From assembly GCA_029582155.1 (NCBI GenBank), contig CM055907.1, positions 33,105,983 through 33,169,982 of the forward strand: a stretch of DNA of 64,000 bases, in the 5' to 3' direction. Of this stretch, positions 4,468 to 42,124 are shown piece after piece (within the stretch, counting starts at the first letter, position 1; every line of letters begins with the position of its first letter). This stretch comes from Panopea generosa (taxonomy: Eukaryota; Mollusca; Bivalvia; Adapedonta; Hiatellidae). The position numbers were made by a program, and so were the translations under genes. The notes beneath the pieces were generated by a model, which searched no databases, was not told the origin of the DNA, and worked only from the letters and a program-made list of their open reading frames with translations.

Positions 4468-4837
4468 TTGTCATATTGTTATACACCTGGTGTATCATTT
4501 ATCATGTTACACACCTGGTATATCATGTATCATGTTGTTATACACCTGGTATAACATTTGTCATGTTGTTATACACCTGGTGTATCATTTGTCTTATTGT
4601 TATACACCTGGTGTATCATTTGTCATATTGATATACACCTGGTGTATCATTTGCCATGTTGTTATACACCTGGTATAACATTTGCCATGTTGTTATACAC
4701 CTGGTGTATCATTTGCCATGTTGTTATACACCTGGTATAACATTTGTCATGTTGTTATACACCTGGTGTATCATTTGTCATATTGATATACACCTGGTGT
4801 ATCATTTGTCATATTGATATACACTTGGTGTATCATT
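4468..4837 (+). repeat. 28-31 bp CACCTG satellite, middle block
   Basis: Same unit as 2040-2761, resuming directly after element A and interrupted again by element B. Confidence 0.93.
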
Positions 4838-6062: not shown

Positions 6063-6180
6063 TTGTCATATTGTTATACACCTGATGTATCATTTGTCAT
6101 GTTGTTATACACCCGGTATAACATTTATCATGTTGTTATACACTTGGTGTTATACACTTGGTGTATCATTTGTCACATTA
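6063..6180 (+). repeat. 28-31 bp CACCTG satellite, right block
   Basis: The final units of the array before unrelated sequence starts at about 6175. Confidence 0.9.
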
Positions 6181-9130: not shown

Positions 9131-9389
9131 ATTGATGTTGTTATTGAAAGATTTAATTAAATTGGTACTAAGTAAATTTTAGAAGATGTGAGAGAAGATG
9201 AAGGATTGTTATTTATCGCTTTTAGTAATATGTCTATTATTGCACTTATTTAAATCGCTGTGAAGACAGCAGAGGTGGGTCGGTTTGTGAATCAAATTTA
9301 ATGATAATGTATAGTATTGCAGTGAAGCCAGCAGAAGTGGTTGGCTTTGTGAATCTCTTTGTGTGATATGTCTAGTATTGTACTTACAG

Positions 9390-9504: not shown

Positions 9505-12500
9505 GTAAGGCTTTCTCTTTATCAATGGCAAGTTGGTTCCCAGCCAGGTTTCAGTACTTTCCACTGCCACCATTCATGTTAAAAACTATAGTAATTTAAA
9601 TGTTATATTGAAGAAAAACAAGTTTAACTTTAGCTATCTATTTTGCAAACACATTAAGAAAAGTTAATTTAGAGCTTATTTATAATGATTGTTGTTGCTG
9701 TTTCAATTTGAAAGTTAAAAACTTAAACATAAAATAATACATAAGAAACCAAAGTGCCCAAAGAATCGTCCCTTTCTCACTTTATACCAAGTTGCTAACT
9801 ATTCAGTGAACATCCAGCATGTCGGACCAGAAACAAACATCTTCACAGTGTTAACTTTAGGAAAACGATAAAATTAGGGATCTAGAGATGATTAGACTGG
9901 GGAAAACTTCAGTCCTGGGAATATCTACTTGTTAACTAGAAGTAAATTAAACATCTAATCTATTGTTTCAGAAATCCTTCTGTGCACCCTGCCAACCCTA
10001 GCACTAAATATACACTCACTGACCATGAGTAATCTAATTTAATCTTTTATTATCAATATAGAATTCCCTTAACTCTATTAATAACTTCCAGACACCATGC
10101 CAACTCTAGTGCTATAAATATTCACTCATTGACCATAAGACCTTGTAGAATTCCCTAAATCTATTTATAAATTGCTGGCATCATGCCAACTACAGCCCCA
10201 TGAATATGCACTTATTTACCTGGAGTAAGATTAGACATTATTGACTGATCTACTCTATTTGCTTAGGTGTTCAGTCATATCGCGACGGTGTCTACTTGAG
10301 ACAGTATTCTGAGCGCTGTCACACTGGAGTATCATGCCGCAAACACATGGTATGATACCCCACCCAGTCACATTATACTGACACCGGGCCGACCAGACCT
10401 AGAACTCGCCTCTAAATGCTGAGCGAGGAAGCTTCTAGTACCATTTTTAAAGTCTTTGGTATGACCCAGCCGGGGATCGAACCCACGACCTTCCGCATAC
10501 GAGGCGGATGCTCTACCACTAGACCACACCGTGGTCCCTATTTGCTAAGAATTCTGGAAGTGGTCACTGAAGTGACATAATATATAGTGTGGTTTGCTGG
10601 CCTATTACTGATTTATTCTTGGGCCAAGGAACCAGACTAAGAAATATTCGAAGCAGTATTTATTTAAACAAATGAAGAATATATTATTGTTAGCACGATT
10701 TACATACGGTTTTTGTATGTGCTTATAATGATAATTATTTATGATTATAAATTAGGTAACAAAACATAGAGTTTGTTATTAAAGTTTGCTTATTATTCAA
10801 ACTGGGAATGAAATAATGACACATACTGGTCTGTTTGATTACTGATTATCTAGAGATTCAAGATTATCAAAATACTCGAATAAAAGTGGAACAAGACCAT
10901 AAGTATCTGTATATTAATCAAGTACACATATTATGAAATATTTATTCTGCAATGGTTTCTTTTACGATGTTGGTTTAACAAAGCGGACATAATCTAGCCA
11001 GTTTGCATAAATGCTTTTTCCAGCCAGACAATCGTGTGCAATATATTCTAGTCATCTTTGATGCTTTGCATCAATCGCATCAATATTTTCTTGTCTATTA
11101 TTAGAACTGTATAATTTCTTTATCTCTGTAATTACATTCAAGCACCTTGCCTAAATGATTACCTGCTGGAACATAGAATCAGGGCTTGGCTTATCTGAAG
11201 TAGTTAAGAAAACTGACAGAAAACTATATTCTCAGTTAGCGGTCACAGTTCTATCTAAAAAATAGTTGTTGTATTGTGCTTTGCATCATTTTCAACAATT
11301 TTTCAGCCATATCATGATGACTATTCTGAGTGCTGCCACACTGGAGATGCCACAAACACATGGTATGATAACCCACCCAGTCACATTATACTGACACTGT
11401 GCCGACCAGGCCTAGTAATATGCTCTAAATGCTGAGTGCCAAACAAGGAAGCTTCTAGTACCATTTTTCAAGTATTTAGTAGTTCAAGAATAAGTATGAT
11501 ATTGGTTATAAAGATGACAAAGATTACAATGCTCTTCATTATGTTTTGTCTTTAGGAAGCCATAAGTCTGATAGAGCCAATGACAAATGATCCTGTCAAC
11601 TATGTAAGACAAGGAGCTCTCATAGCATCTGCCATGATCCTGATACAGCAGAATGAGGTGACCTGTCCACGGGTGAGTAGAAAAGTCAGTCTTACAAGAT
11701 CCTCATACAGCAGAATGAGGTGACCTGTCCAAGGGTGAGTAGCAATGTCAGTCTTATACGATCCTTATACAGTATAATGAGGTGACCTGTCTACAGGTGA
11801 GTAGCAATGTCAGTCTTATACGATCCTTATACAGTAGAATGAGGTGACCTGTCCACGGATGAGTAGCAATGTCAGTCTTACAAGATCCTCATACAGCAGA
11901 ATGAGGTGACCTGTCCACGGGTGAGTAACAATGTCAGTCTTACAAGATCCTCATACAGCAGAATGAGGTGACCTGTCCACGGGTGAGTAGCAATGTCAGT
12001 CTTAAACGATCCTTATACAGTAGAATGAGGTGACCTGTCAACAGGTGAGTAGCAATGTCAGTCTTACAAGATCCCCGTTCAGCAGAATGAGGTGACCTGT
12101 CCATGGGTGAGTAGCAAAGTCAGTCTTAAAAGATCCTTATACAGCAGAATGAGGTGACCTGTCCACAGGTGAGTAGCAATGTCAGTCTTAAACGATCCTT
12201 ATGCAGTATAATGAGGTGACCTGTCTACAGGTGAGTAGCAATGTCAGTCTTACAAGATCCTCGTACAGCAGGATGAGGTGACCTGTCCACGGTTGAGTAG
12301 CAATGTCAGTCTTACAAGATCCTCGTACAGCAGAATGAGGTGACCTGTCCACGGGTGAGTAGCAATGTCAGTCTAACAAGATCCTTGTACAGCAGGATGA
12401 GGTGACCTGTCCACAGGTGAGTAGCAATGTCAGTCTTAAACGATCCTTAGTGACCTGTCCACGGGTGAGTAGCAGTGTCAGTCTTACACGATCCTTGTAC

Positions 12501-15500
12501 AGCAGAATGAGGTGACCTGTCCACGGTTGAGTAGCAATGTCAGTCTTACAAGATCCTTGTACAGCAGGATGAGGTGACCTGTCCACGGGTGAGTAGCAGT
12601 GTCAGTCTTACAAGATCCTTATACAGCAGAATGAGGTGACCTGTCCACAGATGAGTAGCAATGTCAGTCTTAAACGATCCTTATACAGCAGAATGAGGTA
12701 ACCTGTCCACAGGTGAGTAGCAATGTCAGTCTTAAACGATCCTTATACAGTAGAATGAGGTGACCTGTCCACGGGTGAGTAGCATTGTCAGTCTTAAATG
12801 ATCCTTATACGGTAAAATGAGGTGACCTGTCCACGGGTGAGTAGCAATGTCAGTCTTAAACGATCCTTATACAGTAGAATGAGGTGACCTGTCCACGGGT
12901 GAGTAGCAATGTCAGTCTTTAACGATCCTTATACGGTAGAATGAGGTGACTTGGCCACAGGTGGGTAGCAATGTCAGTCTTAAACGATCCTTATACAGTA
13001 GAATGAGGTGACCTGTCCACGGGTGAGTAGCAATGTCAGTCTTTAACGATCCTTATATGGTAGAATGAGGTGACTTGTCCACTGGTGAGTAGCAATGTCA
13101 GTCTTAAACGATCCTTATACAGTAGAATGAGGTGACTTGTCCACAGGTGGGTAGCAATGTCAGTCTTAAACGATCCTTATACAGTATAATGAGGTGACCT
13201 GTCCACAGGTGAGTAGCAATGTCAGTCTTTAATGATCCTTATATGGTAGAATGAGGTGACTTGTCCACTGGTGAGTAGCAATGTCAGTCTTAAACGATCC
13301 TTATATGGTAGAATGAGGTGACCTGTCCACGGGTGAGTAGCAATGTCAGTCTTAAATGATCCTTATATGGTAGAATGAGGTGACCTGTCCACGGGTGAGT
13401 AGCAATGTCAGTCTTAAACGATCCTCGTACAGCAGAATGAGGTGACCTGTTCACGGGTGAGTAGCAATGTCAATCTTACAAGATCCTCATACAGTAGAAT
13501 GAGGTGACTTGTCCACAGGTGAGTAGCAATGTCAGTATTGCCCTTTATTTCAATTGCTATGATTTGTCTACAGGTCGGTAGCCAAATCAGTATTGCTCTT
13601 TATTTTAAAAACACTGAGGATGACTTAAACACATTTACACACAAGCCAGTAAGATGTATTGTATGGCTAATCATGAAGAATGATGATTGTATATCTATTA
13701 AATTCCTTCCTAAGTATAATTCTTCCATCAAATTTCAGCTTTCTAATTACATTGATATCAATATTTCTTGAATCAGAGACAGGAAGTCTGACTTCTTGTT
13801 GATATTTATTCAATTATTTAATGCAGCTTGAAAACATGAACCAAATATTATGATTTCTCATCTAAATTTAATTTTAAAGAAGACAAGGCTACAAACAAGG
13901 GTCATGTTTAGATGTGACATCATTCCTCTTACTACAACATGTTGTTCTAGATAAGGAGATACCGTATACCGCTGAATTAACTCCCCAGTTTTGTAACATA
14001 CTATAACTTACGTTTCACCTTACACAGGTTGGACATTTCCGTCAGATGTACAGCAAGATCATCAGTGATAAGCATGATGACATCATTGCCAAGTTTGGTG
14101 CCATCCTGGCCCAGGGCATCATGGATGCTGGTAAGTTTTCACACTTCTATGCCCAATATTACAAACAGAAAATTCTCTTTTATGCTTGGTTATTTTATGA
14201 ATAGGGGAATTTATGTACTCGCGTCTGTGTCCCACCTGCATTAACTGCATTAAGGTTTCAGTACAAGTTGTTCATAAGAGTGCAAAGCTTGCAGTTACAT
14301 GACTGGAACTTGTTATAAATGTGCATATTTAAACCCTGAGGCATTATGTAACAGTGGGCTCCCTTTACAACCAATGTAGCTTCCCTTTACACTCCCTTTC
14401 CTTTACAAACAGTATAACTATCCTTTACACCCTCTTCCCTTTACAAACAGTAAAAGCTTCCCTTTTCACCACTATACCTTTACAAACAATGTAGCTTCCC
14501 TTAACTTCCCCTTCCCTTTACAAACAGTATAGCTTCCCATTACTCCACCTTCCCTTTACAAACAATGTAGCTTCCCTTTACTAACAATGTAGCTTCCCTT
14601 TACGCCGCCTTCCCTTTACAAACAATGTAGCTTCCCTTTACACCCCCTTCCCTTTACTAACAGTATAGCTTCCCATTACTCCACCTTCCCTTTACAAACA
14701 ATGTAGCTTCCCTTTACATCACCTTCCCTTTACAAACACTGTAGCATCCTTTTACATCACCTTCCCTTTACAAACACTGTAGCTTCCCTTTACATCACCT
14801 TCCCTTTACAAACAATGTAGCTTCCCTTTACAACACCTTCCCTTTACAAACACTGTAGCTTCCCTTTACATCACCTTCCCTTTACAAACACTGTAGCTTC
14901 CCTTTACATCACCTTCCCTTTACAAACAATGTAGCTTCCCTTTACAAACAATGTAGCTTCCCTTTATACCACCTTCCTTTTATAAACAGTATAGCTTCCC
15001 ATTACTCCACCTTCCCTTTACAAACAATGTAGCTAACCTTTACTCCACCTTCCCTTTACAAACAATGTAGCTTCCCTTTACAAACAATGTAGCTTCACTT
15101 TATACCACCTTCCTTTTATAAACAGTATAACTTCCCATTACTCCACTTTCCCTTTACAAACAATGTAGCTTCCCATTACTCCACCTTCCCTTTACAAACA
15201 ATGTAGCTTCCCTTTACAAACAATGTAGCTTCCCTTTATACCACCTTCCTTTTATAAACAATGTAGCTTCCCTTTATACCACCTTCCTTTTACAAACAGT
15301 ATAGCTTCCCATTACTCCACCTTCCCTTTACAAACAATGTAGCTTCCCTTTACAAACAATGTAGCTTCCCTTTATACCACCTTCCTTTTATAAACAATGT
15401 AGCTTCCCTTAACATCCCCTTTCCTTTACAAACAGTATAGCTTCCCATTACTCCACCTTCGCTTTACAAACAATTTAGCTTCCCTTTATACCACCTTCCT

Positions 15501-27500: not shown

Positions 27501-30500
27501 GAACAAAAAAACAACATATTAATAATGAAATCAATGATGCAGTCTGCAGTAAATTCTGTGACAAGAACAATCATGTAGTTAAAATGTTTTAAAGAACAAA
27601 AAGATAACATTGTGTAGTTATTTATCCCGAAAAGCTGTTTATATTCTATTGGGTTATTGGTGAAAACTGATTTAACTGCAAATGACCTTCTCATTAAACT
27701 CATTAGTTGTGTTGTTTTCTCAATTATCAGTAATAAAACAATTGTGTTTTAACTAAAGTGTTCAAAAGATGAGGAAGAAAAAATAACAATTGGTAAAGTT
27801 TTATGATAAAACTTGCTATATATTGTAGCACCTGTCACCAAATAACTTCACATGGGGGCAGGTCTTCAGTGAGGTTACGTAGGTTATGTGTTTAGGGGTT
27901 TGTGACTGCGACTATGCTCTGATATTGAAAAAATTCTGACAAATATTAGACATATTGTTCTTCATGCAACCTGCTGGGTAAAGTGAAATTGATTTGTTAA
28001 TCGTAGCCCAATCAAAACACCTTATTTATTTAAATATTTTTAGGTAAGTATTTCAAATTGTAGAAATCATTAAAAAATTTCACAAAGATTTCACAATGTT
28101 TAGAAGCAATCCGTGTTATAACGTGTCAGTATAAGTTTACAAGCAAGCTGAGTTATATTGTGTCAGTTTAAGTTTAGAAGCAATCTGTATTATAATGTGT
28201 CAGTTTAAGTTTAGGAGCAATTTGTCAGTTTAAGTTTAGAGGCAAACTGGGTTATAATGTGTCATTTAAAGTTTAGAAGCAAACCGTGTTTATATGTCAG
28301 TTTAAGTTTAGAAGCAAGCCATGTTATATGTCAGTTTAAGTTAAGAAGCAAGCCGTGTTATAATGTGTCACATTAAGTTTAGAAGCAATCTGTGTTATAA
28401 TGTGTCAGATTAAGTTTAGAAGCAAACCATGTTATAATGTGTCAGATTAAGTTAAGAAGCAATCCATGTTATAATGTGTCAGATTATGTTAAGAAGCAAG
28501 CCATGTTATAATGTGTCAGATTAAGTGTCAGTTGCAAGCCATGTTATAATGTGTCAGTTTAGGTTAAGAAGCAAGCTATGTTATAATATGTCAGATTAAG
28601 TTAAGAAGCAAGCCATGTTATAATGTGTCAGATTAAGTGTCAGTTTAAGTTTAGAAGCAATCCATGTTATAATTTGTCAGTTAAAGTTAAGAAGCAAGCC
28701 ATGTTATAATGTGTCAGTTTAGGTTAAGAAGCAAGCCATGTTATAATGCGTCAGATTAAGTGTCAGTTTAAGTTTAGAAGCAATCCATGTTATAATTTGT
28801 CAGTTAAAGTTAAGAAGCAAGCTATGTTATAATGTGTCAGATTAAGTTAAGAAGCAAGCCATGTTATAATATGTCAGTTTAAGTTTAGAAGCAATCCATG
28901 TTATAATATGTCAGATTAGGTTGAGAAGCAATCCTTGTTATAATTTGTCAGTTAAAGTTAAGAAGCAAGCCATGTTATAACATGTCAGATTAAGTTAAGA
29001 AGCAAGCCATGTTATAATGTGTCAGATTAAGTTAAGAAGCAAGCCATGTTATAATATGTCAGTTTAAGTTTAGAAGCAAGCCATGTTATGATGTGTCAGT
29101 TTAGGTTAAGAAGCAAGCCATGTTATAATGTGTCGGATTAAGTTTAGAAGCAATCCATGTTATAATGTGTCAGTTTAGGTTAAGAAGCAATCCATGTTAT
29201 AATGTGTCGGATTAAGTTAAGAAGCAAGCCATGTTATAATGTGTCAGTTTAGGTTAAGAAGCAAGCCATGTTATAATGTGTCAGATTAAGTTTAGAAGCA
29301 AGCCATGTTATAATGTGTCAGATTAAGTTTAGAAGCAAGCCATGTTATAATGTGTCAGATTAAGTTTAGAAGCAATCCATGTTATAATGTGTCAGTTTAA
29401 GTTTAGAAGCAATCAATGTTATAATGTGTCAGTTTAAGTTAAAAAGCAATTTATGTTATAATGTGTCAGATTAAGTTTAGAAGAAAGCCATGTTTTATTG
29501 TGTCAGATTAAGTTAAGAAGCAAGCCATGTTATAATATGTCAGTTTAAGTTTAGAAGCAATCCATGTTATAATGTGTCGGATTAAGTTGAGAAGCAATCC
29601 ATGTTATAATATGTCAGATTAAGTTGAGAAGCAATCCATGTTATAATGTGTCGGATTAAGTTTAGAAGCAATCCATGGTATAATGTGTCAGATTAAGTTA
29701 AGAAGCAATCCATGTTATAATGTGTCAGATTACGTTAAGAAGCAAGCCATGTTATAATGTGTCAGATTAAGTTTAGAAGCAAGCCATGTTATAATGTGTC
29801 AGTTTAAGTTAAGAAGCAAGCCATGTTATATGTCAGTTTAAGTTTAGAAGCCAATTATGTTATATGTCAGTTTAAGTTTAGAAGCAAGCCATGTTATATG
29901 TCAGTGTAAGTTTAGAAGCAAGCCATGTTATATGTCAGTTTAAGTTTAGGAGCAAGCCATGTTATAATGTGTCAGTTTAAGTTTAGAAGCAAGCCATGTT
30001 ATATGTCAGTTTAAGTTTAGAAGCAAGCCATGTTATATGTCAGTTTAAGTTTAGAAGCAAACCATGTTATAATGTGTCAGTTTAAGTTAAGAAGCAAGCC
30101 ATGTTATATGTCAGTTTAAGTTTAGAAGCAAACCATGTTATATGTCAGTTTAAGTTAAGAAGCAAGCCATGTTATAATGTGTCAGTTTAAGTTTAGAAGC
30201 AAGCCATGTTATATGTCAGTTTAAGTTTAGAAGCAAGCCATGTTATAATGTGTCAGTTTAAGTTAAGAAGCAAGCCATGTTATATGTCAGTTTAAGTTTA
30301 GAAGCAAGCCATGTTATATGTCAGTTTAAGTTTAGAAGCAAGCCATGTTATAATATGTCAGTTTAAGTTTAGAAGCAATCCATGTTTTATGTCAGTTTAA
30401 GTTTAGAAGCAAGCCGTGTTATATGTCAGTTTAAGTTTAGAAGCAAGCCATGTTATAATGTGTCAGTTTAAGTTTAGAAGCAAGCCGTGTTCTAAAGAAG

Positions 30501-33500
30501 CAATCTGTGTTATGTCAGTTTAAGGATTTGAAACTGCTGCATGTATGGAGGCTGCCACTAAGTCTGGGATCATGATCTGAGATATTGATATAGGTGATAT
30601 ACAAGTGAAACTCTTGGCAAGGCCTGTAAAATCAATGAAACTTTGTTGTCAGAGCCAATAGATAAACACAACTCAGTTCTCCCATACCTCCTTTAGTCTA
30701 AAATATATTTACACCATTGCTTATTCTCCACTGGACAGCCACACATATTCATGAAATAATCTAACGAAAAAGTTCAATTTAGAAACATAATGGAATGAAC
30801 CCACACATCCCCACCCATAAAATGTTTTAATTTTTTGCACATATCAATGTTTTTTTATATATCTTGGGCATTTTAACTCGTTGTTCCAGTACTCATATCT
30901 ATTATGCTCTGTCTTTAGCCCTTTTGAGCGCGGAATATGAATTCTTGGTGTGTTATTCTTTGCTTGGATGGTTATTGATTTGTACAGCACACAAATATAA
31001 TATTATCTGTAGATGATTGTCATGTGTGACTTCTATAAAAATAATATGGGGAGAAATGTGACATGTACAGAGACAAGGACTGATAAAGTAAGGTGTAGGT
31101 TACATGAAGTAGTCTCAGTACCCGACTAATGTCATTAATGATTTACGATATTCAAGTTATATAAGCGTAATTACAATACATTTATTATTCCCCACTTTTC
31201 AAAGAATTGGGGGATAGTGAAATTGTGTTCATCAATCTGTCTGTCTGTGCACAAGAGTGGTTATTTAAGTATTTAGGGTAAGTAATTTTTGGACAATTGA
31301 AAAACAATTATGTGGCTGTTCCGAGATACTTAAAAAATGCTTTTATGTGGCTGAACTTTAGCCACACAAGTAGTCAGCTGGGCACAAAGAAGCCACTTAA
31401 CTATCCATTTGTTAGAACGTTCATATGTCCGTCATGTTTTGGACCAACAACTTTGCAGACACAACTCCTGATTTTAACATGATTTGGATGAAACTTTCTG
31501 TATAGCAAGTGCATAGTCTGGCCATGTGTTTGTGGTCTTTATCATAGACCTATGGCCCTTTGTTCTTTTAACTTAGATTTTATCTCATACTTTAGACATA
31601 CAAATCTTCGAACAGTTTTAACCTGATTCAATATGTGCCTGTTGCATTGGGGTTCTGATTAGATCATTAATTATGGAGTTATGGTCCTTTGTTATTTAAA
31701 CTCAATTTTTACATTACACTTTGGACCAACAACCATGCAGTAGCAACTCCTCCTACAGTTTAAATACAATTCAAATAAAACTTGCTGTACAGCAGGTACA
31801 TGATCTGAACATGAGCCTGTGATCTTGGTGTTCCGATTCTATAGATTCTTCTTAAATTATGGCCCTTTGACATTTATAATGAAATTGCAATTTTGCATTT
31901 CAGCCTATAACTATTCAGTAACAGCATTTACCATATTGAATGTTCTAATGAGGACAGGCCTTCAAAAAGTGATGTTTAACATAACAATCCTTTTTTTTAC
32001 ATCTCAGGCATTATAATGCAGTGTTCCAGAACCCACATCCACAGGCAATCATTATTTTGCTCAGTCATTGCAGTTTCAAGCAAAATATTAATTTTGTTTG
32101 TCTTTTGGCAGTAAGAAATAGTAAAAATGGTGAGAAAAGTTACTTCATCAATAAAAGCCACATTTCAGATTAACAGTGATTCCAGGAATTAATATGATTC
32201 GTAGAAGGGGTCGATAATACCCAGCAGCCTTTGCTCTATACCAATCTGATACGTACTGGTCACCATGTTTCTTTGTAATCAACGATGATATCACTATGTA
32301 TAGTTTGTACAGGGCTGCACAGATAGTGTGGTTTTATTATCATTTTTAGCTTAGAATAGGGGGGCTATTGTATTCGCGTTGGCGTTGGTTTTTCAGTTTA
32401 AAGTTCTTTATCAGGTCAGATATCTATCCAACCACTCATTCAATGTTAATGAAACTTCATATGTGTGTTCAGCATCATCAATGGAACACACACAGATAAG
32501 AACAATAACTCTAGGTTGCATCAGGAAGAGTTATGGCCCTTTTTGGACTTAATTTTTCAGGTTGAAGTTTTTTTATCAGGTAAGATATCTATGCAAACAC
32601 TCGTTCGGTATAAATGAAATTTCAGTCATGTGTGTTCAACATCATCAATAACACACAGAGACATGAATCATAAATCTGGGTTGCATTTTGGCAGAGTTAT
32701 GGCCCTCTTTGGACATAATTTTTCAAGTTAAAGTTTTTTAACCATGTAATATTATCTAATCAACAACTCATTGGATATAAATGAAACTTCACATGTGTGT
32801 TCAGTGGAACACATAGAGACAACAACCATAACTCTTGGTTGCATTTTGGCACAGTTGTGGCCCTTTTCTTTGCTTGATTATTCAAGGTAAAGTTTTTAAT
32901 CAGGTAAGCTATCTATGCAACCACTCATTTGATATTAGCAGGTTAAAGTTTGTAGTACAAGGTGTTGAGCTTATATGTTTGACAAATAGGGTCAGTTTTT
33001 CAGGTATTATTACTTTTTATCTAAATTTTTTGTTTTCATTTTCATGAAAGTTTAACTTTCTGTAATTTTTTTTCTTCATTTTCATGAAAATAAAATAGTA
33101 TTGGTGAATTAATTTATTTTTAACAGACAAGCAATAATTATAGCTTATTTTACCACCCCTGAGTTTTAATTGTGTTCCATTTGGTCCTTATTTCCTGATA
33201 AAGTTGTTGTTTTAGAACAGCATCGAAATAGTGAAGCGCTCTGTTTCTCCGACAGCTCTTGTTAATTTTATCTTTAGAACAACACAGCAGTATAATATGT
33301 ACATATGTTTTACAGGTGGCAGGAACATGACCATCTCCCTCCAGTCTAGGACAGGACACAGTAACATGGAGGCCATTGTAGGGCTGCTGGTTTTCTCCCA
33401 ATTCTGGTTCTGGTACCCACTCACACATTTCCTGTCCCTTTCATTCACACCAACGTGTACCATCGGACTCAACACTGATTTAAAGGTGGGTGCAGTGCTT

Positions 33501-36500
33501 ACATAATTTACTTACTTTTTAGTTCACCTTAGCCAAAGTCTGAAGTGAAATAGTGCGATTGCTTTTTGTCTGTCCATTTGTTTGCCATCTGTCAACAATT
33601 ACTCAAAAAAATTCTCTTAAACTGTATGCCAGAGTTTTACCAAATTTGGTGTGATATGTTGTGGTTTTTTTAACCTTTTTTCAAGTTAGTGTTCAAGTTC
33701 AAGCGCTAGGTCCAGTGGTAGAGCACCAAACCCATGATTGGAGATCCCCCACAGCTATGTGTGGTGTCTTTTAGAAGGAAACTTTTTCTGCATATTCTTT
33801 GTACTGGTTTACTTAGAAAGACTTCAAGCATGATTTGTATAAGTTGGAATTACTCGTGTTGCAATCAAAGTAAAAAAAGATACCCTGCAATCAAATTTGA
33901 CTGCGCCACAAGAGCTAATCAAGTTTTTATTAAAAAAAATTTTCTCATAAACTATCATCAAAATTTATTCATATTTGGTATAAATGATTCCTATGAGTAG
34001 GGGTTTTGAGTTTGTTCAAATAAAGACGATAGGATCCATTGGGGCCCAATGAGGGGACTTTAATTTTGAAAGGAGTTTTACAGGAAAACAGCAAATTCTG
34101 TTTTGCTTATCTATTTTAAGTATTATTTTAATCATCAAGATGTCTGGAGCATTGTTTAGTCATAACAGTTGCGACTGAGTCCTTAAAATGATGTTTAATG
34201 GTGTTTAATATTAATAAGAGGACAGCAGGGGTCCAAAATGGGATAAAACTGAATATTCAGAAAATTGAATCTTCTTCTCAAGAACTGATGAGCTAAATTT
34301 GTTCATATTTGGTATAAATGGTCCCTATGAGTAGGATTTGTTCGTATAAAGTGGATAAGAATCATTGGGGTCTTTCATTTTTACAAAGGATTACTATGGG
34401 AAAATAAGAAATTCTGTTTTGCTCAATTATTTATTTCAATCAACTTGATTTCTGTCTGAAGTATTCAGTCATAACAGTTGAGACTGGGTCCTTTAAAAGG
34501 GATTTAATATCCATAAGGAACCAGCACGAACCTAAAAAGGAGTAAAATTTCAAAAATCTTCTTCTTAAGAACTGATGGGTGAAGTTTGTTCATATTATAT
34601 GTAAATGATCCCTATGAATAGGGGTTTGATGTCTGTTCAAATAAAGACCTGCAGTATATAGGGGCCTAATAAAGGCACCTTGATTTTTACGTATAAATAC
34701 TAAGGGAAAACAATTAATTCTCTTTTTATCTTTTCTTTTAGAATGATTTTGATTATCTTGAGATTTGGAGTATTGTTTAGTCTTAACATTTGAGATTGGG
34801 TCCCTTGAAAGGGGTTTTAATATTCATAAGGGGCCAGCAGGGATAATTGGAAGTAGTGAGAGTTTAAGCATGTATAATGAGCATATATCTTGTGTGCTCT
34901 ATGTAGACGACTATTAAAAGATAAAAATCACTACAGTTACCATGCACCTGTTAGAGAAACCCTAAATCATTCTTTAAAAATATCTTAACTCTCCAGAACA
35001 GATAGGCTGGGTTTCTACACACTCAGTCTCCAGTTTATTCCAATAATGCCCCTCATCCATCAAACAAATACTTGGATGAGGGCCCATCATTTCTCATGAG
35101 CCTTCAGCTTTCGCATGTATAATGAGCATCTTCTAAATAAACAACAAAACAAAGCAAACTAACCCACAATGTTTTTTCTGTGTAACTATATCATGAACAA
35201 TAATACATTATATCCAAGACAATGAACAAAATTTCATATTGTGTTATTAAACATACATCAAACACAATTTGGGAATGATTTTAAATATCTTGATATTTGG
35301 TGTATTTTTTAGTCATAACAGTTGTGACTGCATTTTTTACTCGGAATTTAAGAAGACTACATTTTAAACATAATGAATCAATGCTATGGAAAGTTAATTC
35401 CCATTTTTCTTATATATAAGTTCTTCATTGGTTTAATCAATTTGCAATTTGAAAAGAAGTTGTAGGTGAGCAACTTAGGTCTCAATTGGTCCACTCCTTA
35501 ATTAGAAATTTGCCATTATTCAATTTTTAGCTCGCCGGGACGAAGTCCAAGGAGAGCTATTGTCATGACTCCGACGGCGGCGTCTGTAGACACCAAGGTT
35601 AAACTTTTGCGTACAAGTTTCAGATATCTATGCAACCACTCATTTGATGTGAATGAAACTTTGCACGTGTGTTTACCATCATCAATGGAACACACAGAGA
35701 TAAGAACCATAACTCTTGATTGCATTTTGGCACAGTTATGGCCCTTTTTGGACTTAGACACCCAGGTTAAACTTTGCATTTAGTTGCGTTTAAGTTTTAA
35801 GTTATCTATGCAACCACTCATTGGATGTGAATGAAACTTCACACATGTGTTCACCATCATCAATGGAACACACAGAGATAGGAACCATAACTCTTGGTTG
35901 TATTTTGGTACAGTTATGGTCCTTTTTGGACTTAGACACCAAGGTTAAATTTTCTGTTTAGTTGCATTTAAGTTTAGGATATCTATGCAACCACTCAATG
36001 GATGTGAATAAAACTTCCCATGTGTGTTCACCATCATCAATGGAACACACAGAGACAAGAACCATAACTTTGGATTGCTTTTTGGCACAGTTATGGTCCT
36101 TTTTGGACTTAGACATCCAGGTTAAACTTTGAGTTTAGTTACGTTTAAGTTTAAGATATCTATGAAACCACTCATTGGATGTGAATGAACCTTCACATGT
36201 GTGTTCACCATCTTCAATGGAACACACACAGACAAGAACCACAACTCTGGGTAGCCGTTTGGCTTAGTTATGGCCCTTTTTCGACTTAATTTTTCAGGTT
36301 AAAGTTTTTTTATCAGGTAAGATATCTATGTAACCACTCAGTGGATATGAATGAAACTTCGCATGTGTGTCCACCATCATCATTGAAACACACAGAGACA
36401 AGAACCATAACTCTGGGTTGCATTTTGGCACAGTTATGGCCCTTTTTAGACTTAGACACCCAGAGGCGAGCTTTGTTGTATTATGACAGCTCTTGTTTAT

Positions 36501-39500
36501 TTAACGTTTCACTGTGATAACAATTGACCGTATCATCGTGATACCAATTCACCGTATCACAGTGTTACCAATTTAACATATCACAATGATACCAATTTAC
36601 CGTATCACAGTGATACCAATTTACCGTATCACAGTGATACCAATTTACCATATCACAGTGATACCAATTTACCGTATCACCGTGATACCAATTTACCATA
36701 TCACAGTGATACCAGTTTACCGTATCACAGTGTTACCAATTTACCATATCACAGTGTTACCAATTTACCGTATCAACACGATACCAATTTACCGTATCAC
36801 AGTGATACCAATTTAACATATCACAGTGATACCAATTTCTTCTTCATTAAGATTAAACTTAGCTCAAAAATTACTATTACATTCATGTCAGGAATTCTTT
36901 TATGAAGCTAAAATAATAAGATGTACTTAAACTCTAGATATATTATGCAGGCGTCCAAAGTTTGATATTAATCGACATTGTTTATTATCCAAATTAATCG
37001 ACATTGTTTACTATCCAAATTAATCGACATTGTTTACTAAACAAATTAATCGACATTGTTTACTATCCAAATTAATCGACATTGTTTACTATCTTAAACT
37101 GGAATAATCCAAATAGATGGTCACTATCCTTTATTAGAGTAATCAATATAGATATATAGTATTAGTGTTTGTCTCTTGTTTCACAGATGCCCAAGGTTGA
37201 GTTGAGTAATCTATAAAGATATATATTATTAGTGTTTGTCTCTTGTTTCACAGATGCCCAAGGTTGAGTTGAGTAATCTATATAGATATATATTATTAGT
37301 GTTTGTCTTTTGTTTCACAGATGCCCAAGGTTGAGTTGAGTAATCTATATAAATATATATTATTAGTGTTTGTCTCTTGTTTCACAGATGCCCAAGGTTG
37401 AGTTGAAATCCAATGCCAAGCCATCCATGTTTGCATATCCACCCAATCTGGAAGAGAAGAAAAAGGAAGTGAAGGACAAAGTAGAGACAGCGGTGCTTAG
37501 TATCACAGCAAAACAGAAGAAGAAAGAAGCTGACAAAAAGAAAGAGGAAGAAAAAATGGACACGGTGTGTTTTTGATCTAATAAATTTTTGCAAATGTTT
37601 ATTCACAAAAGGTGCGACCGGGTCTTTTAAAGAGGATTATATATCCATAAGGGACAGTAGAGGCCTAAAAAGGGATAAAACTGGTGGGCTTGACATTTTC
37701 ACAGACCTGTACTGGTGGGCTTGACATTATCACATACCTGTACTGGTGGGCTTGACATTATCACAGACCTGTATTGGTGGGCTTGACATTATCACATACC
37801 TGTACTGGTAGGCTTGACATTATCACAGACCTGTACTGGTAGGCTTGACATTATCACAGACCTGTACTGGTGGGCTTGACATTATCACATACCTGTACTG
37901 GTGGGCTTGACATTATCACAGACCTGTACTGGTGGGCTTGACATTATCACATACCTGTACTGGTAGGCTTGACATTATCACAGACCTGTACTGGTGGGCT
38001 TGACATTATCACATACCTGTACTGGTAGGCTTGACATTATCACAGACCTGTACTGGTGGGCTTGACATTATCACAGATCTACTGGTGGGCTTGACATTGT
38101 AAGCCTTGGGCATGAAGTTTCTTGTTTTTATTGACAGGCTAGCAAACAGCAATAAAATTCATGCTTTAGTACGGTATGTAACATGAAATACTGTATTCTG
38201 CCATCATGTAGCGACTTAAACAAAATGCATAATGACGTTTCTATGATGCAGTGAAATGAATTTGCAGCTCTTTTTTTTTTTTAAGGACGAGAAAGCAGAT
38301 GACAGCACAGAAAAGAAACAAGAAGCAGAGAAAAAAACAGAAACTGTGGAAAAAGAGAAAGAAGATGAGAAAAAAAAAGAGGAAGAAACAAAGAAGAAAG
38401 AACCAGAACCCATGTTTGAGATGTTGAACAATCCAGCTCGTACAATGAGAGCTCAGGTAACTAGACAAATTTTGCACATACATACTTTATCAAATTACAA
38501 GTGTTTATACTGGCAATTATACTCTTCGCCATGTGAATTGACTGAAGTGTTTACACTTCTCTCAATCTTCACCTTGTGAATCGACTGAAGTGTTTACACT
38601 TCTCCATCCACACAATGTGAATTGTGTTTACTCTGCTTAATCCACACAATGTAAATTCTCAATCTACACAATGTGAATCGACTGAAGTGTTAACACTTCT
38701 CAATCTACACAATGTGAATCAACTGAAGTGTTTACACTTCTCAATCTTCACCTTGTGAATCGACTGAAGTGTTTACACTTCTCAATCCACACAATGTGAA
38801 TTGACTGAAGTGTTTTCACCTCTTAATCCACACAATGTGAATCGACTGAAGTGTTTACACTTTTCAATCTTCACCTTCTGAATCGACGAAAGTGTTTACA
38901 CTTCTCAATCTACACAATGTGAATCGACTGAAGTGTTTACACTTCTCAATCTTCACCTTGTGAATCGACTGAAGTGTTTACACTTCTCAATCTTCACTTT
39001 GTGAATTGACTGAAGTGTTTACTCTTCTCAACCTACACAATGTGAATCGATTGAAGTGTTAACACTTCTTATTCCACACAATGTGAATCGACTGAAGTGT
39101 TTACTTTTCTCAATCCACACAATGTGAATTGACTAAAGTGTTTACACTTCTCAATCCACACAATGTGAGTCGACTGAAGTGTTAACTCTTCTCAATCTAC
39201 ACAATGTGAATCGGCTGAAGTGTTTACACTTCTTAATCCACACAATGTGAATCGACTGAAGTGTTTACTCTTCTCAATCCACACAATGTGAATTGACTAA
39301 AGTGTTTACACTTCTCAATCTACATAATGTGAATGGACTGAAGTGTTTACACTTCTCAATCTAAATAATGTGAATTGACTGAAGTGTTTACACTTCTCAA
39401 TCCACACAATGTGAGTCGACTGAAGTGTTAACTCTTCTCAATCTTCACCATGTGAATTGACTGAAGTGTTTACTCTTCTCAATCTACACAATGTGAATCG

Positions 39501-42124
39501 GCTGAAGTGTTTACACTTCTTAATCCACACAATGTGAATCGACTGAAGTGTTTACTCTTCTCAATCCACACAATGTGAATTGACTAAAGTGTTTACACTT
39601 CTCAATCTACATAATGTGAATGGACTGAAGTGTTTACACTTCTCAATCTAAATAATGTGAATTGACTGAAGTGTTTACACTTCTCAATCCACACAATGTG
39701 AGTCGACTGAAGTGTTAACTCTTCTCAATCTTCACCATGTGAATTGACTGAAGTGTTTACTCTTCTCAATCTACACAATGTGAATCGGCTGAAGTGTTTA
39801 CACTTCTTAATCCACACAATGTGAATCGACTGAAGTGTTTACTCTTCTCAATCCACACAATGTGAATTGACTAAAGTGTTTACACTTCTCAATCTACATA
39901 ATGTGAATGGACTGAAGTGTTTACACTTCTCAATCTAAATAATGTGAATTGACTGAAGTGTTTACACTTCTCAATCTACACAATGTGAATTGACTGAAGT
40001 GTTTACACTTCTCAATCTTAACTGTGCTTCACATATACAAAGAATTCTAAAGAATTAAATGTCTAGATCACTAAGTGAAGACGTGTGACTATCAGTGCAA
40101 GGTCACGGCTAGTCAAGATTTCTTAATTATCAGTACAGAACTGTGTCAAGGTCATCAAGAGTAAAGTTGCATGGTTTTAAGTAGTTCTACCTATTACACA
40201 CAACTATGAAGCATATTTTGTCACTAAGGGAAAACAATTTAAAAAAATTGAGTTAAATGTTAAAATCGTTATTATTTTAAAGAAGGTGCGGTCTTCCAAA
40301 AGAAATATGCTGCAAGGAGTTAAGTAGCTGTACCTGTTACTCAGCTAGAAATCAAACTTTGTGACAGGAGCAAGCAGTTTCAATGACACAGGAACTAAAT
40401 TTGGTTCAAACTTCCATTGTAAGAAGTCTGTACATCTCCAGCCAAGAGTAACACTGCACATTTGAACATTCAATAAAAATATGCCAGGTTTTACTTACAA
40501 GTAAATAATGGCTGTATAACCTCTGATTTAGAATACATAGATGGTATTTTCATAATTAAGCAGGCCAAAGCTGCTACATGACAATTTAAATCTGTAATGA
40601 CAACTATAAATCTAGAGTGAAGCCTGTAAATCTGTAATGACGGCTGTAAATCTGTAATGACGACTATGTATCTGTAATGACTGTTATCAATCTGTAATGA
40701 CAGCTATAAATCTGTAATGGCGACTATCAATCTGTAATGACGACTATAAATCTGTTATGATAGCTATCAATCTGTAATGATGACTATAAACTAATAATCT
40801 GTAATGACGACTATAAATCTGTAATGACGACTGATAATCTGTAATGACGGCAATCAATCTGTAATGACGGCTATAAATCTGTAATGGCAACTATAAATTG
40901 TAATGACGGCTATAAATCTGTAATGACGACTATCAATCTGTAATGACGACTATAAATCTGTAATGACGACTAATAATCTGTAATAACGGCTATAAATCTG
41001 TAATGGCAACTATAAATTGTAATGACGGCTATAAATCTGTAATGACGACTATCAATCTGTGTGTTTTCCCTTGTAGTTGAAGGTACTCAATATGCCAGAA
41101 AGCAGCAGGTATTCCCCATTGAAGGACATCAGCAATGGTGGTATTGTTATGTTGAAAGATGTCAAACCCGGAGAAAAGGAGGAAATTGTAGAACCCGTCA
41201 TTGGTAAGTAGACTTCATACATAGCTGGCCTGGAGATAAATCTTAGTAGGAATTTTATCAGACCAAACATGGTCACAAATACCTTGGTTGTTGACTTCAG
41301 TAACTCTAAAACCTTCCAAGGTAACTTCAGGAAACTTTATACTCATGATCTCAGTGCAGATCTCATTTTATTTTTAATATATTTTCTGTAACAATGGAAA
41401 CAAATAGCCAAAATTACTAAATTATCATAACTTTAAAACTTTTGAAGATAGTTTCATGAAACAGTGTACACATGTCAGCTAAGTGGCCAAGTAGTGTGCC
41501 TCTTGCTGTGAATTATTTTTCATTTTCAATAGCTGTTCTGTTACCATGAAAAAAAAAGGCCAAAATTACGAAATTTTTAAGTATCAGAATGTCTTAAATA
41601 AAATAATCACCATAATTGGGATATTGATGACTATGTCGTCTTGTTCCTAGTTAATCAGAATTTTTGTAAAGCGGAAGACAATAATTTGGGTCCGTCCGTC
41701 AGACTTTTGGTTTCTGTGCAATAACTTGAGAATGTCAGAATCAAATATTTTGAAATTTTATTACAATGTTTATAATGACAAAACAGAGGCTAAGGTTGAT
41801 TTAAGTGATTGTGGCATTTGTCGTTCTACAGTTATGCGCCTTTAATTTGTGAAAAATCATATTTTAGGGGTTTCCTTGCAATAATTTAAGACTGCCTGAA
41901 TCAAATATTTTGAGATTTTAATACAACAATTATAATGACAAACCAGTTCGATTTAAGGGGTTGTAGCATTTGTTAAAAATCATATTTATGGGGGTTTCCG
42001 TGCAATACCTTGAGAATGCCTAAATCAAATCTTTTTTTATTTTATTGTTTCAGCTGGCGGTCCAAAGGTTGAGGATGAAGAGGAGCCTGAACCACCAGAG
42101 CCATTTGAGTGGACTGAGGATTAA
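9390..42124 (+). CDS. PSMD1: PSMD1 (26S proteasome regulatory subunit 1 / Rpn2), 3' portion, eight exons
   Basis: Spliced CDS joined from 9390-9504, 11556-11672, 14028-14130, 33316-33485, 37388-37564, 38286-38456, 41077-41203 and 42054-42124. All junctions are GT-AG and the phases agree, giving one split codon, ~349 residues and a stop. Rpn2 is a large non-ATPase scaffold of the 19S regulatory particle base; it links the ATPase ring and binds the ubiquitin receptor Rpn13. Visible parts in order: PC (proteasome/cyclosome) toroid repeats with the '[15 protein letters not shown]' type signature and '[20 protein letters not shown]'; the toroid-closing 'SLQSRTGH' and '[13 protein letters not shown]'; a long Lys/Glu KEKE linker; and an acidic, proline-rich tail ending [10 protein letters not shown]. 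The C-terminal acidic tail is the Rpn13-binding region in known orthologues. The family is about 950 residues long, so roughly the last third is here. The 5' exons are outside the window. Introns are very repeat-rich; the one at 14131-33315 is 19 kb. Identification is secure. Confidence 0.96.
9505..10254 (+). other. PSMD1: PSMD1 intron, unassigned
   Basis: No recognised feature apart from a weak repetition at about 9990-10200 of 'CACTCA(T/C)TGACCAT' and 'CATGCCAACT' phrases. Confidence 0.5.
10264..10537 (-). mobile_element. tRNA-derived SINE, family A, full copy
   Basis: On the minus strand it begins with a tRNA-like head: box A TGGTCTAGTGGTAGAGCATC and box B GGTTCGATCCC. A conserved body follows (AAAAATGGTACTAGAAGCTT, GTCAGTATAATGTGACTGGG). 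It is flanked by a 9 bp target-site duplication CTATTTGCT at 10255-10263 and 10538-10546. The same element occurs at 44039. Polymerase III transcription and LINE-driven retroposition are inferred from the class. Confidence 0.9.
11293..11475 (-). mobile_element. SINE family A fragment lacking the tRNA head
   Basis: Matches the body and tail of the 10264-10537 copy (CACCCAGTCACATTATACTG, GGAAGCTTCTAGTACCATTT) but stops before the tRNA-like part, so it is 5' truncated. Confidence 0.8.
11556..11672 (+). CDS. PSMD1: PSMD1 exon ending in ...NEVTCPR
   Basis: The acceptor is 'tgtctttag' ending at 11555 and the donor is GTGAGT at 11673. It has 39 codons, phase 0 to 0, reading [20 protein letters not shown] and [19 protein letters not shown]. 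This is the next PC repeat. Its last ~35 bases and the donor are the founder-like first unit of the 60 bp minisatellite that follows, so identical or near-identical exon ends with donors recur through the intron. The first copy is the coding one, because only it follows the conserved upstream residues. Confidence 0.95.
11637..13545 (+). repeat. 60 bp minisatellite carrying the exon 3' end and 5' splice site
   Basis: About 31 units of ~60 bp, each like CAGCAGAATGAGGTGACCTG then TCCACGGGTGAGTAGCAATG and TCAGTCTTACAAGATCCT. The first unit overlaps the end of exon 11556-11672 and its donor. By eye about 25 units keep GTGAGT, two have GTGGGT, and four have lost GT (ATGAGT or TTGAGT). One unit near 12450 is shortened. 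Confidence 0.96.
14028..14130 (+). CDS. PSMD1: PSMD1 exon [10 protein letters not shown]...QGIMDAG
   Basis: The acceptor is 'cttacacag' ending at 14027 and the donor is GTAAGT at 14131. It encodes [20 protein letters not shown] then [14 protein letters not shown], and ends on the first base of a Gly codon (phase 1). It covers the last part of the PC toroid. The next exon, 19 kb away, supplies the remaining two bases of the Gly codon. Confidence 0.95.
14360..16125 (+). repeat. Pyrimidine-rich tandem array (CTTCCCTTTACA type)
   Basis: ~1.77 kb of tandem units built from CTTCCCTTTACAAACAATGT plus AGCTTCCCTTTACACCACC, in single and double forms. It is strongly strand-asymmetric: the plus strand is rich in C/T tracts. 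It lies in the 19 kb PSMD1 intron. Confidence 0.95.
16126..16880 (+). other. PSMD1: PSMD1 intron, unassigned AT-rich
   Basis: No recognised feature. Confidence 0.5.
16881..18268 (-). mobile_element. Tandem-core element with AAAGGTCAAGGTCAC in each unit
   Basis: The left end is TTTATGCTCCCTAAAAAAAA then TTTGGGGTGGTATATAG; the right end is CCATTTGGGGGGCATGCA...TTTTTTCTTG. The core has about six units of ~165-180 bp with CTTTGTCATGCATAGATGGA, ATCAACATAACATGAC and AAAGGTCAAGGTCAC. No transposase is present. The ends are shared with 7487-8598. Confidence 0.75.
18607..20412 (-). mobile_element. Tandem-core Helitron/pearl-like element C
   Basis: The left end AGCTTGACTATTCGAAGAAT includes the hairpin TATTC-GAA-GAATA; the right end is GTCCCTCCGACAGCTCTTGT. 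The core is about nine units, some truncated, with GTTAAAGTTTTGCATGCAAG, CACTTAATGTATTTGATTGA and TATTGCCCTTGTTTGACTTA. The core is clearly related to, but diverged from, element B (both end a unit with GCCCTT...GACTTAGA and begin the next with GGTTAAA). A run of five short units occurs near 18830-19090. Confidence 0.78.
20800..21245 (+). mobile_element. SINE family C copy with tail expanded in tandem
   Basis: Starts with TTGATGATTCATATACAACA and CACCACTGATTCAAGTGGGA, as in the copies at 23775 and 57468. The segment from AAAGTTATCAGTTACTTGAG to AAGAATTCCAGGAAATAGTG is then repeated about five times, with one shortened unit. Confidence 0.65.
21246..21904 (+). other. PSMD1: PSMD1 intron, unassigned
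   Basis: No supported gene. The 74-codon open frame at 21635-21859 has no recognisable family features. Confidence 0.5.
21905..23530 (-). mobile_element. Tandem-core element, three ~600 bp units, with AGGCCC hairpin end
   Basis: Units restart near 22006, 22630 and 23210 with CTGAAACCACTTGGCCAATT and AAACTTCACATGGATGTT, and include TTCAAGATGGCCGCCATTAC. The right end CTCAGGCCCTCTTGGGCCTT TTGTTT contains the stem AGGCCC/GGGCCT. A diverged opposite-orientation copy of the unit is at about 25770-26115. Confidence 0.6.
23775..24075 (+). mobile_element. SINE family C, near-complete
   Basis: tRNA-like start with box B GTCGTGAGTTCAAATCGCC, body GATTCAAGTGGGAAAGTTAC and TTACTTGCAGAGATGGGATG, and tail ACTGATTGTCTGTTAGCCCA ending in (AATC)n. 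Confidence 0.65.
24076..25769 (+). other. PSMD1: PSMD1 intron with degenerate repeat ends
   Basis: 24480-24550 (GACAGGTGAGATAAGGTAAG, CAACTTAGAC) resembles the end of the element at 33529-35480. 24715-24770 begins GAGGGGGGGTTCAAAAAGTT, like a DNA-transposon terminal sequence, but no partner end was established. Nothing coding was recognised. Confidence 0.4.
25770..26115 (+). repeat. Inverted, diverged copy of the 22-23.5 kb unit
   Basis: Contains GACCCCTTAAGCCAGTGGAA, GGTGGCCATCTTGTATTTTA and CCATGTGAAGTTTCAG, the reverse complements of phrases in the 21905-23530 units. Confidence 0.6.
26610..27320 (+). repeat. Degenerate ~150 bp repeat with CAAAGGTCAAGGTCACA
   Basis: Repeated phrases TTGTAAACCACTTGAAAGAT, TTTGAAATAACTTGGTACAA and ATGTTCACCATAAT recur about every 150 bases, with ACTCAAAGGTCAAGGTCACA at 27191. 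Probably an old tandem-core element related to 16881-18268. Boundaries are unclear. Confidence 0.5.
27321..28090 (+). other. PSMD1: PSMD1 intron, unassigned
   Basis: No recognised gene or repeat. Confidence 0.5.
28091..30520 (+). repeat. 34-37 bp tandem array (AAGCAAGCCATGTTATAATG type)
   Basis: ~2.4 kb of units like GTGTCAGATTAAGTTAAGAA then GCAAGCCATGTTATAAT, mixed with a 34 bp form lacking AAT (TTATATGTCAG). Roughly 65-70 units. The 34 bp form dominates from about 29830 onwards. Confidence 0.96.
30521..31185 (+). other. PSMD1: PSMD1 intron, unassigned
   Basis: No recognised feature. Confidence 0.5.
31186..32110 (-). mobile_element. Probable degenerate tandem-core element
   Basis: Starts TATTCCCCACTTTTCAAAGA then ATTGGGGGATAG (CCCC/GGGG hairpin) and has two to three diverged units with TATGGCCCTTTG and TTGGACCAACAACTTTGCAG. 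The right boundary is uncertain. Confidence 0.45.
32348..33262 (-). mobile_element. Tandem-core Helitron/pearl-like element D
   Basis: Left end AGCTTAGAATAGGGGGGCTA (AATAG/CTATT stem); right end GTTTCTCCGACAGCTCTTGT. About three units with TCAGGTAAGATATCTATGCA, ACACACAGAGACA and CAGAGTTATGGCCCT. It ends 53 bases before the PSMD1 exon at 33316. Confidence 0.75.
33316..33485 (+). CDS. PSMD1: PSMD1 exon [14 protein letters not shown]...NTDLK
   Basis: The acceptor is 'gttttacag' ending at 33315 and the donor is GTGGGT at 33486. It completes a Gly codon and then encodes [20 protein letters not shown] and [20 protein letters not shown], ending in [11 protein letters not shown]. This aromatic, highly conserved stretch closes the Rpn2 toroid. 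It lies just downstream of a tandem-core transposable element that ends at 33262, only 53 bases before the exon. Confidence 0.95.
33529..35480 (-). mobile_element. Tandem-core element, ~300 bp units, carrying a SINE
   Basis: Left end TTTTTAGTTCACCTTAGCCA...AAGTGAA (inverted TTCAC/GTGAA). Units near 33940, 34280 and 34560 share TTCATATTTGGTATAAATGA, TCCCTATGAGTAGG and AAATAAAGAC. The right end is near TTGTAGGTGAGCAACTTAGG. A SINE lies inside at 33710. Confidence 0.5.
33710..33890 (+). mobile_element. SINE family B, degenerate copy
   Basis: AGGTCCAGTGGTAGAGCACC is the box A region. The box B segment appears deleted compared with 58946-59154. The body CACAGCTATGTGTGGTGTC and GACTTCAAGCATGATTTGTA is recognisable. 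Confidence 0.7.
35529..36496 (-). mobile_element. Tandem-core Helitron/pearl-like element E
   Basis: Left end AGCTCGCCGGGACGAAGTCC with the GGAC-GAA-GTCC hairpin; right end GAGGCGAGCTTTGTTGTATT then ATGACAGCTCTTGT. About five ~180 bp units as in element B. Complete ends, no transposase. Confidence 0.82.
36512..36838 (+). repeat. 24 bp array with palindrome GTATCACAGTGATAC
   Basis: About 14 units of ACCAATTTACCGTATCACAG then TGAT. Each holds a 7 bp inverted repeat (GTATCAC/GTGATAC) around one base, giving a regular series of dyads. It lies directly after element E. Confidence 0.93.
36965..37090 (+). repeat. ~28 bp repeat (ATTAATCGACATTGTTTACT)
   Basis: Five units of ATTAATCGACATTGTTTACT then ATCCAA in PSMD1 intron 33486-37387. 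Confidence 0.9.
37141..37406 (+). repeat. 67 bp array carrying the 3' splice site and exon start
   Basis: Four copies of TTAGTGTTTGTCTCTTGTTT then CACAGATGCCCAAGGTTGAG. ATG follows the AG at 37187, 37254, 37321 and 37388, exactly 67 bp apart. The first three read into GAGTAATCTATA; only the last continues as coding sequence. Confidence 0.95.
37388..37564 (+). CDS. PSMD1: PSMD1 exon [19 protein letters not shown] plus start of KEKE linker
   Basis: The acceptor is 'ttgtttcacag' ending at 37387 and the donor is GTGTGT at 37565. It has 59 codons, phase 0 to 0. It starts [19 protein letters not shown] (Met here is internal, not a start) and continues through [20 protein letters not shown] into Lys/Glu-rich sequence. 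The acceptor and first 19 bases are repeated three times upstream at 67 bp spacing. Only the fourth copy continues into the conserved '[12 protein letters not shown]', so it is taken as the true exon. Confidence 0.94.
37680..38097 (+). repeat. 31 bp array (GGTGGGCTTGACATTATCAC)
   Basis: About 13-14 units of CTGGTGGGCTTGACATTATC then ACAGACCTGTA, fitting most of the 721 bp intron between the two KEKE exons. Alternating CAGACC and CATACC variants suggest paired-unit expansion. Confidence 0.94.
38286..38456 (+). CDS. PSMD1: PSMD1 exon encoding the KEKE linker and [14 protein letters not shown]
   Basis: The acceptor is a run of 12 T followed by AAG, ending at 38285; the donor is GTAACT at 38457. 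It has 57 codons, phase 0 to 0: [19 protein letters not shown], more Lys/Glu repeats, then [24 protein letters not shown] stretches are known in several proteasome subunits; this one looks longer than the vertebrate linker. A second AG 18 bases upstream (exon start 38268) would keep the frame and add Leu-Phe-Phe-Phe-Phe-Lys, but it lacks a pyrimidine tract, so 38286 is preferred. Confidence 0.93.
38515..40020 (+). repeat. 41 bp array with ~287 bp higher-order repeat
   Basis: Units of GAAGTGTTTACACTTCTCAA then TCTACACAATGTGAATCGAC T. Variant order recurs: GAATCGGCTGAAGTGTTTAC occurs near 39209, 39496 and 39783, so blocks of seven monomers (~287 bp) were duplicated. Confidence 0.94.
40021..40584 (+). 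other. PSMD1: PSMD1 intron, unassigned
   Basis: No recognised feature between the 41 bp and 20 bp arrays. Confidence 0.5.
40585..41060 (+). repeat. 20 bp array (CTATAAATCTGTAATGACGA) abutting an acceptor
   Basis: About 23 units of CTATAAATCTGTAATGACGA with variants, running to 17 bases before the exon at 41077. Each unit contains TAATGAC, which resembles a metazoan branch-point sequence. Confidence 0.94.
41077..41203 (+). CDS. PSMD1: PSMD1 exon [20 protein letters not shown]...VEPVI
   Basis: The acceptor is 'gttttcccttgtag' ending at 41076 and the donor is GTAAGT at 41204. It encodes [20 protein letters not shown] and [20 protein letters not shown], and ends on the first base of an Ala codon. 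It corresponds to the conserved C-terminal beta-rich segment. A 20 bp tandem array runs to within 17 bases of the exon and must include the branch-point region. Confidence 0.95.
41204..42053 (+). other. PSMD1: Last PSMD1 intron
   Basis: Contains diverged repeats (TGTGCAATAACTTGAGAATG near 41720, 41870 and 42000) of the same general style as the tandem-core elements. No separate boundaries established. Confidence 0.5.
42054..42124 (+). CDS. PSMD1: PSMD1 terminal exon with stop codon
   Basis: The acceptor is 'tattgtttcag' ending at 42053. It completes Ala and then encodes [20 protein letters not shown], Glu-Asp and TAA at 42122-42124. The acidic PPEPFE tail matches the family C-terminus, which binds Rpn13 in characterised orthologues. 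The 3'UTR follows, with the first AATAAA at 42349. Confidence 0.95.

Follow-up and report, generated by a model that had tools for sequence, protein, structure and literature searches.

Tandem arrays across two exon-intron junctions of the Rpn2 gene in the bivalve Panopea generosa: most likely tolerated repeats

The stretch of Panopea generosa DNA analysed here (the window, 64,000 nucleotides, C14:33105983-33169982 of the assembly) carries part of the gene for the proteasome subunit Rpn2 (PSMD1). The start of one of its exons is repeated in tandem together with the preceding splice acceptor. The exon, 37388-37564, is identified as Rpn2/PSMD1 by PDB matches to the human and related subunit with E values of about 5e-13. 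At 37137-37406 Tandem Repeats Finder (TRF) reports an array of period 67, with 4.0 copies and 96% matches, in agreement with a preliminary description of this DNA, which had read a 67-bp unit four times in a row. The span given there, 37141..37406, is right at its end and begins 2-4 bases late: the array starts at 37137 by TRF and at 37139 when the units are set in register. The locus is composed as follows.

33316..33485, plus strand: preceding Rpn2 exon, the donor of which is joined to the acceptor at 37388
37139..37205, plus strand: copy 1, with an extra acceptor that puts the first exon base at 37187, and a 19-nt copy of the exon; its use would give an in-frame TAA at 37214
37206..37272, plus strand: copy 2, with an extra acceptor (37254) and exon copy; its use would give a TGA at 37332
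37273..37339, plus strand: copy 3, with an extra acceptor (37321; a single C has become T in its pyrimidine tract) and exon copy; its use would give a TGA at 37399
37340..37406, plus strand: copy 4, true acceptor (first exon base 37388) and the opening 19 nt of the coding exon
37388..37564, plus strand: Rpn2/PSMD1 exon ending in KMDT, identified by protein matches

Each unit consists of 48 intron and 19 exon nucleotides, and the acceptor AG is present in all four. The first exon bases assigned in the preliminary description to the three extra acceptors and the true one prove exact, as do the early stops that it predicted: the frame entered from the first extra acceptor reads MPKVELSNL before its stop, and those from the second and third are 26 residues long. 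Any two units differ at 2-3 of the 67 positions and each of the four bears a substitution of its own, with five variable positions overall (-42, -38, -36, -28 and -12 relative to the exon start). The 19 exon nucleotides are the same in all units, and the sole change within the last 20 intron nucleotides is the C/T difference of copy 3. A run of 4 x 67 bp at 96% is no chance match, while tandem arrays as such are common in this region. The array was found at one locus in the 1.47-Gb genome (39 contigs) by a search that skips very common words. The 48 nucleotides of intron end that accompany every extra acceptor cover the usual branch-point distance, and the extra sites are therefore plausible acceptors. 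A microexon formed by an extra acceptor and a downstream GT was considered and set aside: the GTs at +14 and +19 (tga/GTAATC) shift the frame, and the one at +9 (aag/GTTGAG) keeps it, yet is a poor donor by eye and nothing indicates its use.

A second junction of the same gene is repeated in the opposite polarity.

11556..11672, plus strand: Rpn2 exon EAISLIEPM...EVTCPR, whose last 37 nt belong, with the donor, to the 62-bp unit
11636..13536, plus strand: array across the second junction, in which a 62-bp unit occurs 31 times (spaced at 62 bp except for one interval of 48), each time with 37 exon nt and a donor; the true donor is the first (11673)

The 62-bp unit comprises 37 exon and 25 intron nucleotides, and one of the 31 units is shortened. 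The GT is kept in 27 of the 31; the G is altered in four units and the T in none. The authentic donor, CGG/GTGAGT, fits eight of the nine letters of the donor consensus. By the same measure 24 of the 30 extra donors have a GT and score no lower than the authentic one, and eight of these 24 fit the consensus perfectly. The intron that bears the array thus holds 25 sites with a GT and at least 8/9 consensus letters, the authentic donor counted, against two in the 19-kb intron 14132-33315. If reading ran on beyond the true donor, it would reach an in-frame stop at 11721. One gene therefore carries both a donor array and an acceptor array, and in each the site compatible with the coding frame adjoins the exon body.

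At the acceptor junction the protein join LK/MP is unbroken in all eight homologues aligned, which are proteins of other species drawn from the 120 matches listed. Among these 120 of 5240 matches, the closest homologue that carries a species name comes from Mactra antiquata (74% over the query), the one from Mya arenaria reaches 72% over 84%, and none is close enough to be a homologue from the same species. With the Mactra protein (P0002), 22 Rpn2 exons were placed at about 32.871-33.148 Mb of contig C14, about the first 68 residues having no placed exon sequence. The exons as placed cover about 277 kb of the contig, and the Mactra homologue has 991 residues. When the human PSMD1 sequence was used as a query and 30 candidates were scored, all 17 Rpn2 matches fell at one locus of C14. 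As there is one Rpn2 locus, enough correct splicing presumably must occur at it.

Arrays of period 10 or more make up 42.8% of the window, compared with 12.7% of a sample of ten 5-kb stretches drawn arbitrarily from ten contigs. Tandem self-matches spanning a junction are present at two of the 22 placed Rpn2 exons; in this count the exon edges that fall beyond the window are approximate, and some exons lie near the ends of the fetched stretches and have short flanks. How many such arrays should be expected depends on the null model. If the fraction of bases in arrays is used, 13.6 of 43 junctions are expected inside arrays (P 2e-5); for the window alone, 2 of 14 junctions gives P 0.03, some exon edges in the coverage count being off by one base. 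Taken at face value, this naive model would suggest strong avoidance, with selection that keeps arrays off junctions. It overstates the expectation, however, because junctions come to be spanned only by arrays whose founding unit already lay across them; some selection against junction arrays may nonetheless act. When the unit of each distinct array is treated as its founding segment and placed regardless of exons, 0.84-1.86 of the 43 junctions are expected to be spanned, against two observed, and the probability of two or more is 0.20-0.56. Two junction arrays are thus about what blind placement of units predicts.

Several other repeats in and around the gene were considered as junction arrays and rejected. 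A 63-bp array in the region L008 follows an Rpn2 exon and has one similar copy upstream of it, the junction itself being unrepeated. The array at 9260-9380 stops short of the acceptor. The 20-bp array at 40587-41060, of 23.5 copies, leaves a gap of 16 bases to the exon that starts at 41077; it abuts the pyrimidine tract and does not reach the acceptor. A 38-nt match, L021:8708-8745 (recovered also as L014), lies 1.4 kb off, is not tandem and was dropped.

The 63-bp array, L008:1801-3165, has at least 21.8 copies and starts about 140 bases past the upstream Rpn2 exon; the single similar copy, L008:1443-1500 (81% over 58 bases), stands just before that exon, which is thus flanked by related units. 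In the upstream part of Rpn2, arrays occupy 5-46% of each of five 10-kb stretches. Within the window, a 31-bp unit recurs in closely similar form, as rotations of TTGTTATACACCTGGTGTATCATTTGTCATG, in three separate arrays at 2065-2761, 4467-4837 and 6062-6150, and related units of 165-177 bp form arrays at 4916-5928, 32389-32935 and 35607-36463 that resemble a dispersed satellite.

The changes within the units were examined for signs of selection on the extra splice sites. In the donor array, columns -3 to +6 have a mean of 2.33 minority copies, compared with 1.92 elsewhere, when 30 units are counted and the shortened one is left out; permutation gives P 0.37 for a mean this high or higher and P 0.67 for one this low or lower. 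The shortened unit is out of register in the first columns, and the count for the exon columns is 2.05 without it and 2.51 with it. In the acceptor array, which has four copies only and few changes, 4 of 28 positions are changed in the rest of the unit, against 1 of 39 in the acceptor and exon part (Fisher P 0.15). There is no significant sign that the extra splice sites have been either purged or upheld.

Repeats of this kind have been described in lancelets under the name of mirages. PMC3087553 describes them in Adh3 and in the globins BflGb6 and BflGb9, with units of 10-72 bp (Adh3) to 150-160 bp (BflGb6). The Adh3 data and globin reverse transcription-polymerase chain reaction (RT-PCR) reported there suggest that mirages leave regular splicing undisturbed, and mirages are proposed in it as a route of intron gain. 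PMC3902484 extends the list by PGBD5, with citations for Adh and troponin C. Both Rpn2 arrays, known here from the sequence alone, fit the structural definition: the unit holds exon and intron of one boundary, and the splice signals are repeated with it. They differ in being in a bivalve and in Rpn2, in showing both polarities within one gene, and in the length of the donor array, up to 31 copies. A small search of the open-licence literature, part of it aimed at bivalves and molluscs, which is no proof of absence in print, found junction-spanning repeats under this name in lancelets only. A more distant parallel is provided by the variable internal tandem repeats of human segmental duplications, some of which lie at exon-intron boundaries (PMC2812944). 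According to that report, boundary repeats can alter gene structure, and novel introns are proposed; the human repeats are variable and lie in exons of recent paralogues, whereas the extra copies in Rpn2 are intronic and the coding exon is intact.

By combining these observations, it is possible to propose how the arrays arose and why the gene tolerates them. Slippage or unequal exchange would have duplicated in tandem a 67-bp segment lying over the exon start (48 + 19 nt). When a segment across a junction is multiplied in this way, one exon stays intact at the outer edge of the array, and the protein would survive if the exon-proximal site is taken, that is, the last of the four acceptors and, in the other array, the first of the 31 donors (11673). 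Exon definition may make this choice. The extra acceptors would for the most part be passed over, or would see some low use, their products being lost to nonsense-mediated decay, and the array would have no regulatory role. There is good reason to believe that the 67-bp array is such a short minisatellite of the mirage type, and the arrays together are most likely tolerated repeat noise from which splicing picks the exon-proximal site. Tolerance is favoured because a second junction array of opposite polarity is present in the same gene, because the number of junction arrays is close to that given by blind placement, because the repeated splice signals carry no significant selective signal, and because in the lancelet precedent splicing is apparently undisturbed. 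The preliminary description had left the choice between a ladder of poison splice sites and tolerated noise; the same four lines of evidence strengthen the second, and the first has gained nothing.

Some observations weigh against tolerance. The donor columns are slightly, although not significantly, more variable than the other columns, and the five changes in the acceptor array, too small a number for a judgement, tend to lie outside the acceptor and exon part, which has one of them. The last 20 intron nucleotides do not distinguish copies 1, 2 and 4, and therefore a role for the extra sites may stand as far as the letters themselves can tell. The copy number is known from one assembly and may be in error. 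The lancelet precedent, finally, comes from other genes and another phylum.

The alternative that survives best, though an unlikely one, is that the extra acceptors are used modestly and without regulation, at a cost, and that the copy number varies between individuals, so that the array acts as a mild variable number tandem repeat affecting expression. Near-identical acceptors would be expected to compete. In lancelets the globin mirage BflGb6 is reported to have six units in one haplotype and three in another, and AG/GT signals are reported in many units; the RT-PCR reported for lancelets nevertheless suggests regular splicing.

Regulated use of the three extra acceptors, with early stops and decay tuning the level of Rpn2, is more doubtful still. 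The extra sites would bring early stops in the manner of poison exons and other alternative splicing coupled to nonsense-mediated decay, and from the stops at 37214, 37332 and 37399 it is another 350, 232 and 165 nt to the end of the exon (37564), so that all three satisfy the usual 50-nt rule for decay. The last 20 intron nucleotides of copies 1 and 2 are, moreover, the same as those of the true acceptor. However, any unit whose length is not divisible by three tends to give stops, and the 62-bp array does likewise with its stop at 11721. The copies, differing at just 2-3 of 67 positions, look young or homogenised, and junction arrays are about as many as blind placement predicts. Levels of proteasome subunits in animals are also set mainly by transcription, which counts against such a ladder. 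A broader proposal, that Rpn2 is under splicing-level control, with 31 donors and four acceptors in competition and individual differences in their copy number setting the share of transcripts that is decayed and hence the proteasome level, is slightly less credible again. That the copy number is an artefact of assembly is the least probable: one lancelet mirage is reported as apparently aberrant in the draft genome, but here a private substitution marks every one of the four units and the genome is assembled in 39 contigs.

The arrays of Rpn2 thus most likely add another case, in a bivalve, to the junction-spanning minisatellites described in lancelets. In one essential gene the spliceosome faces two natural constructs, one with 31 donor copies (27 of them with a GT) and the other with four near-equal acceptors. 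They offer a direct test of how the site next to the exon is chosen where the local signals do not differ, and they bear on whether junction-spanning repeats are a general product of repeat-rich genomes.
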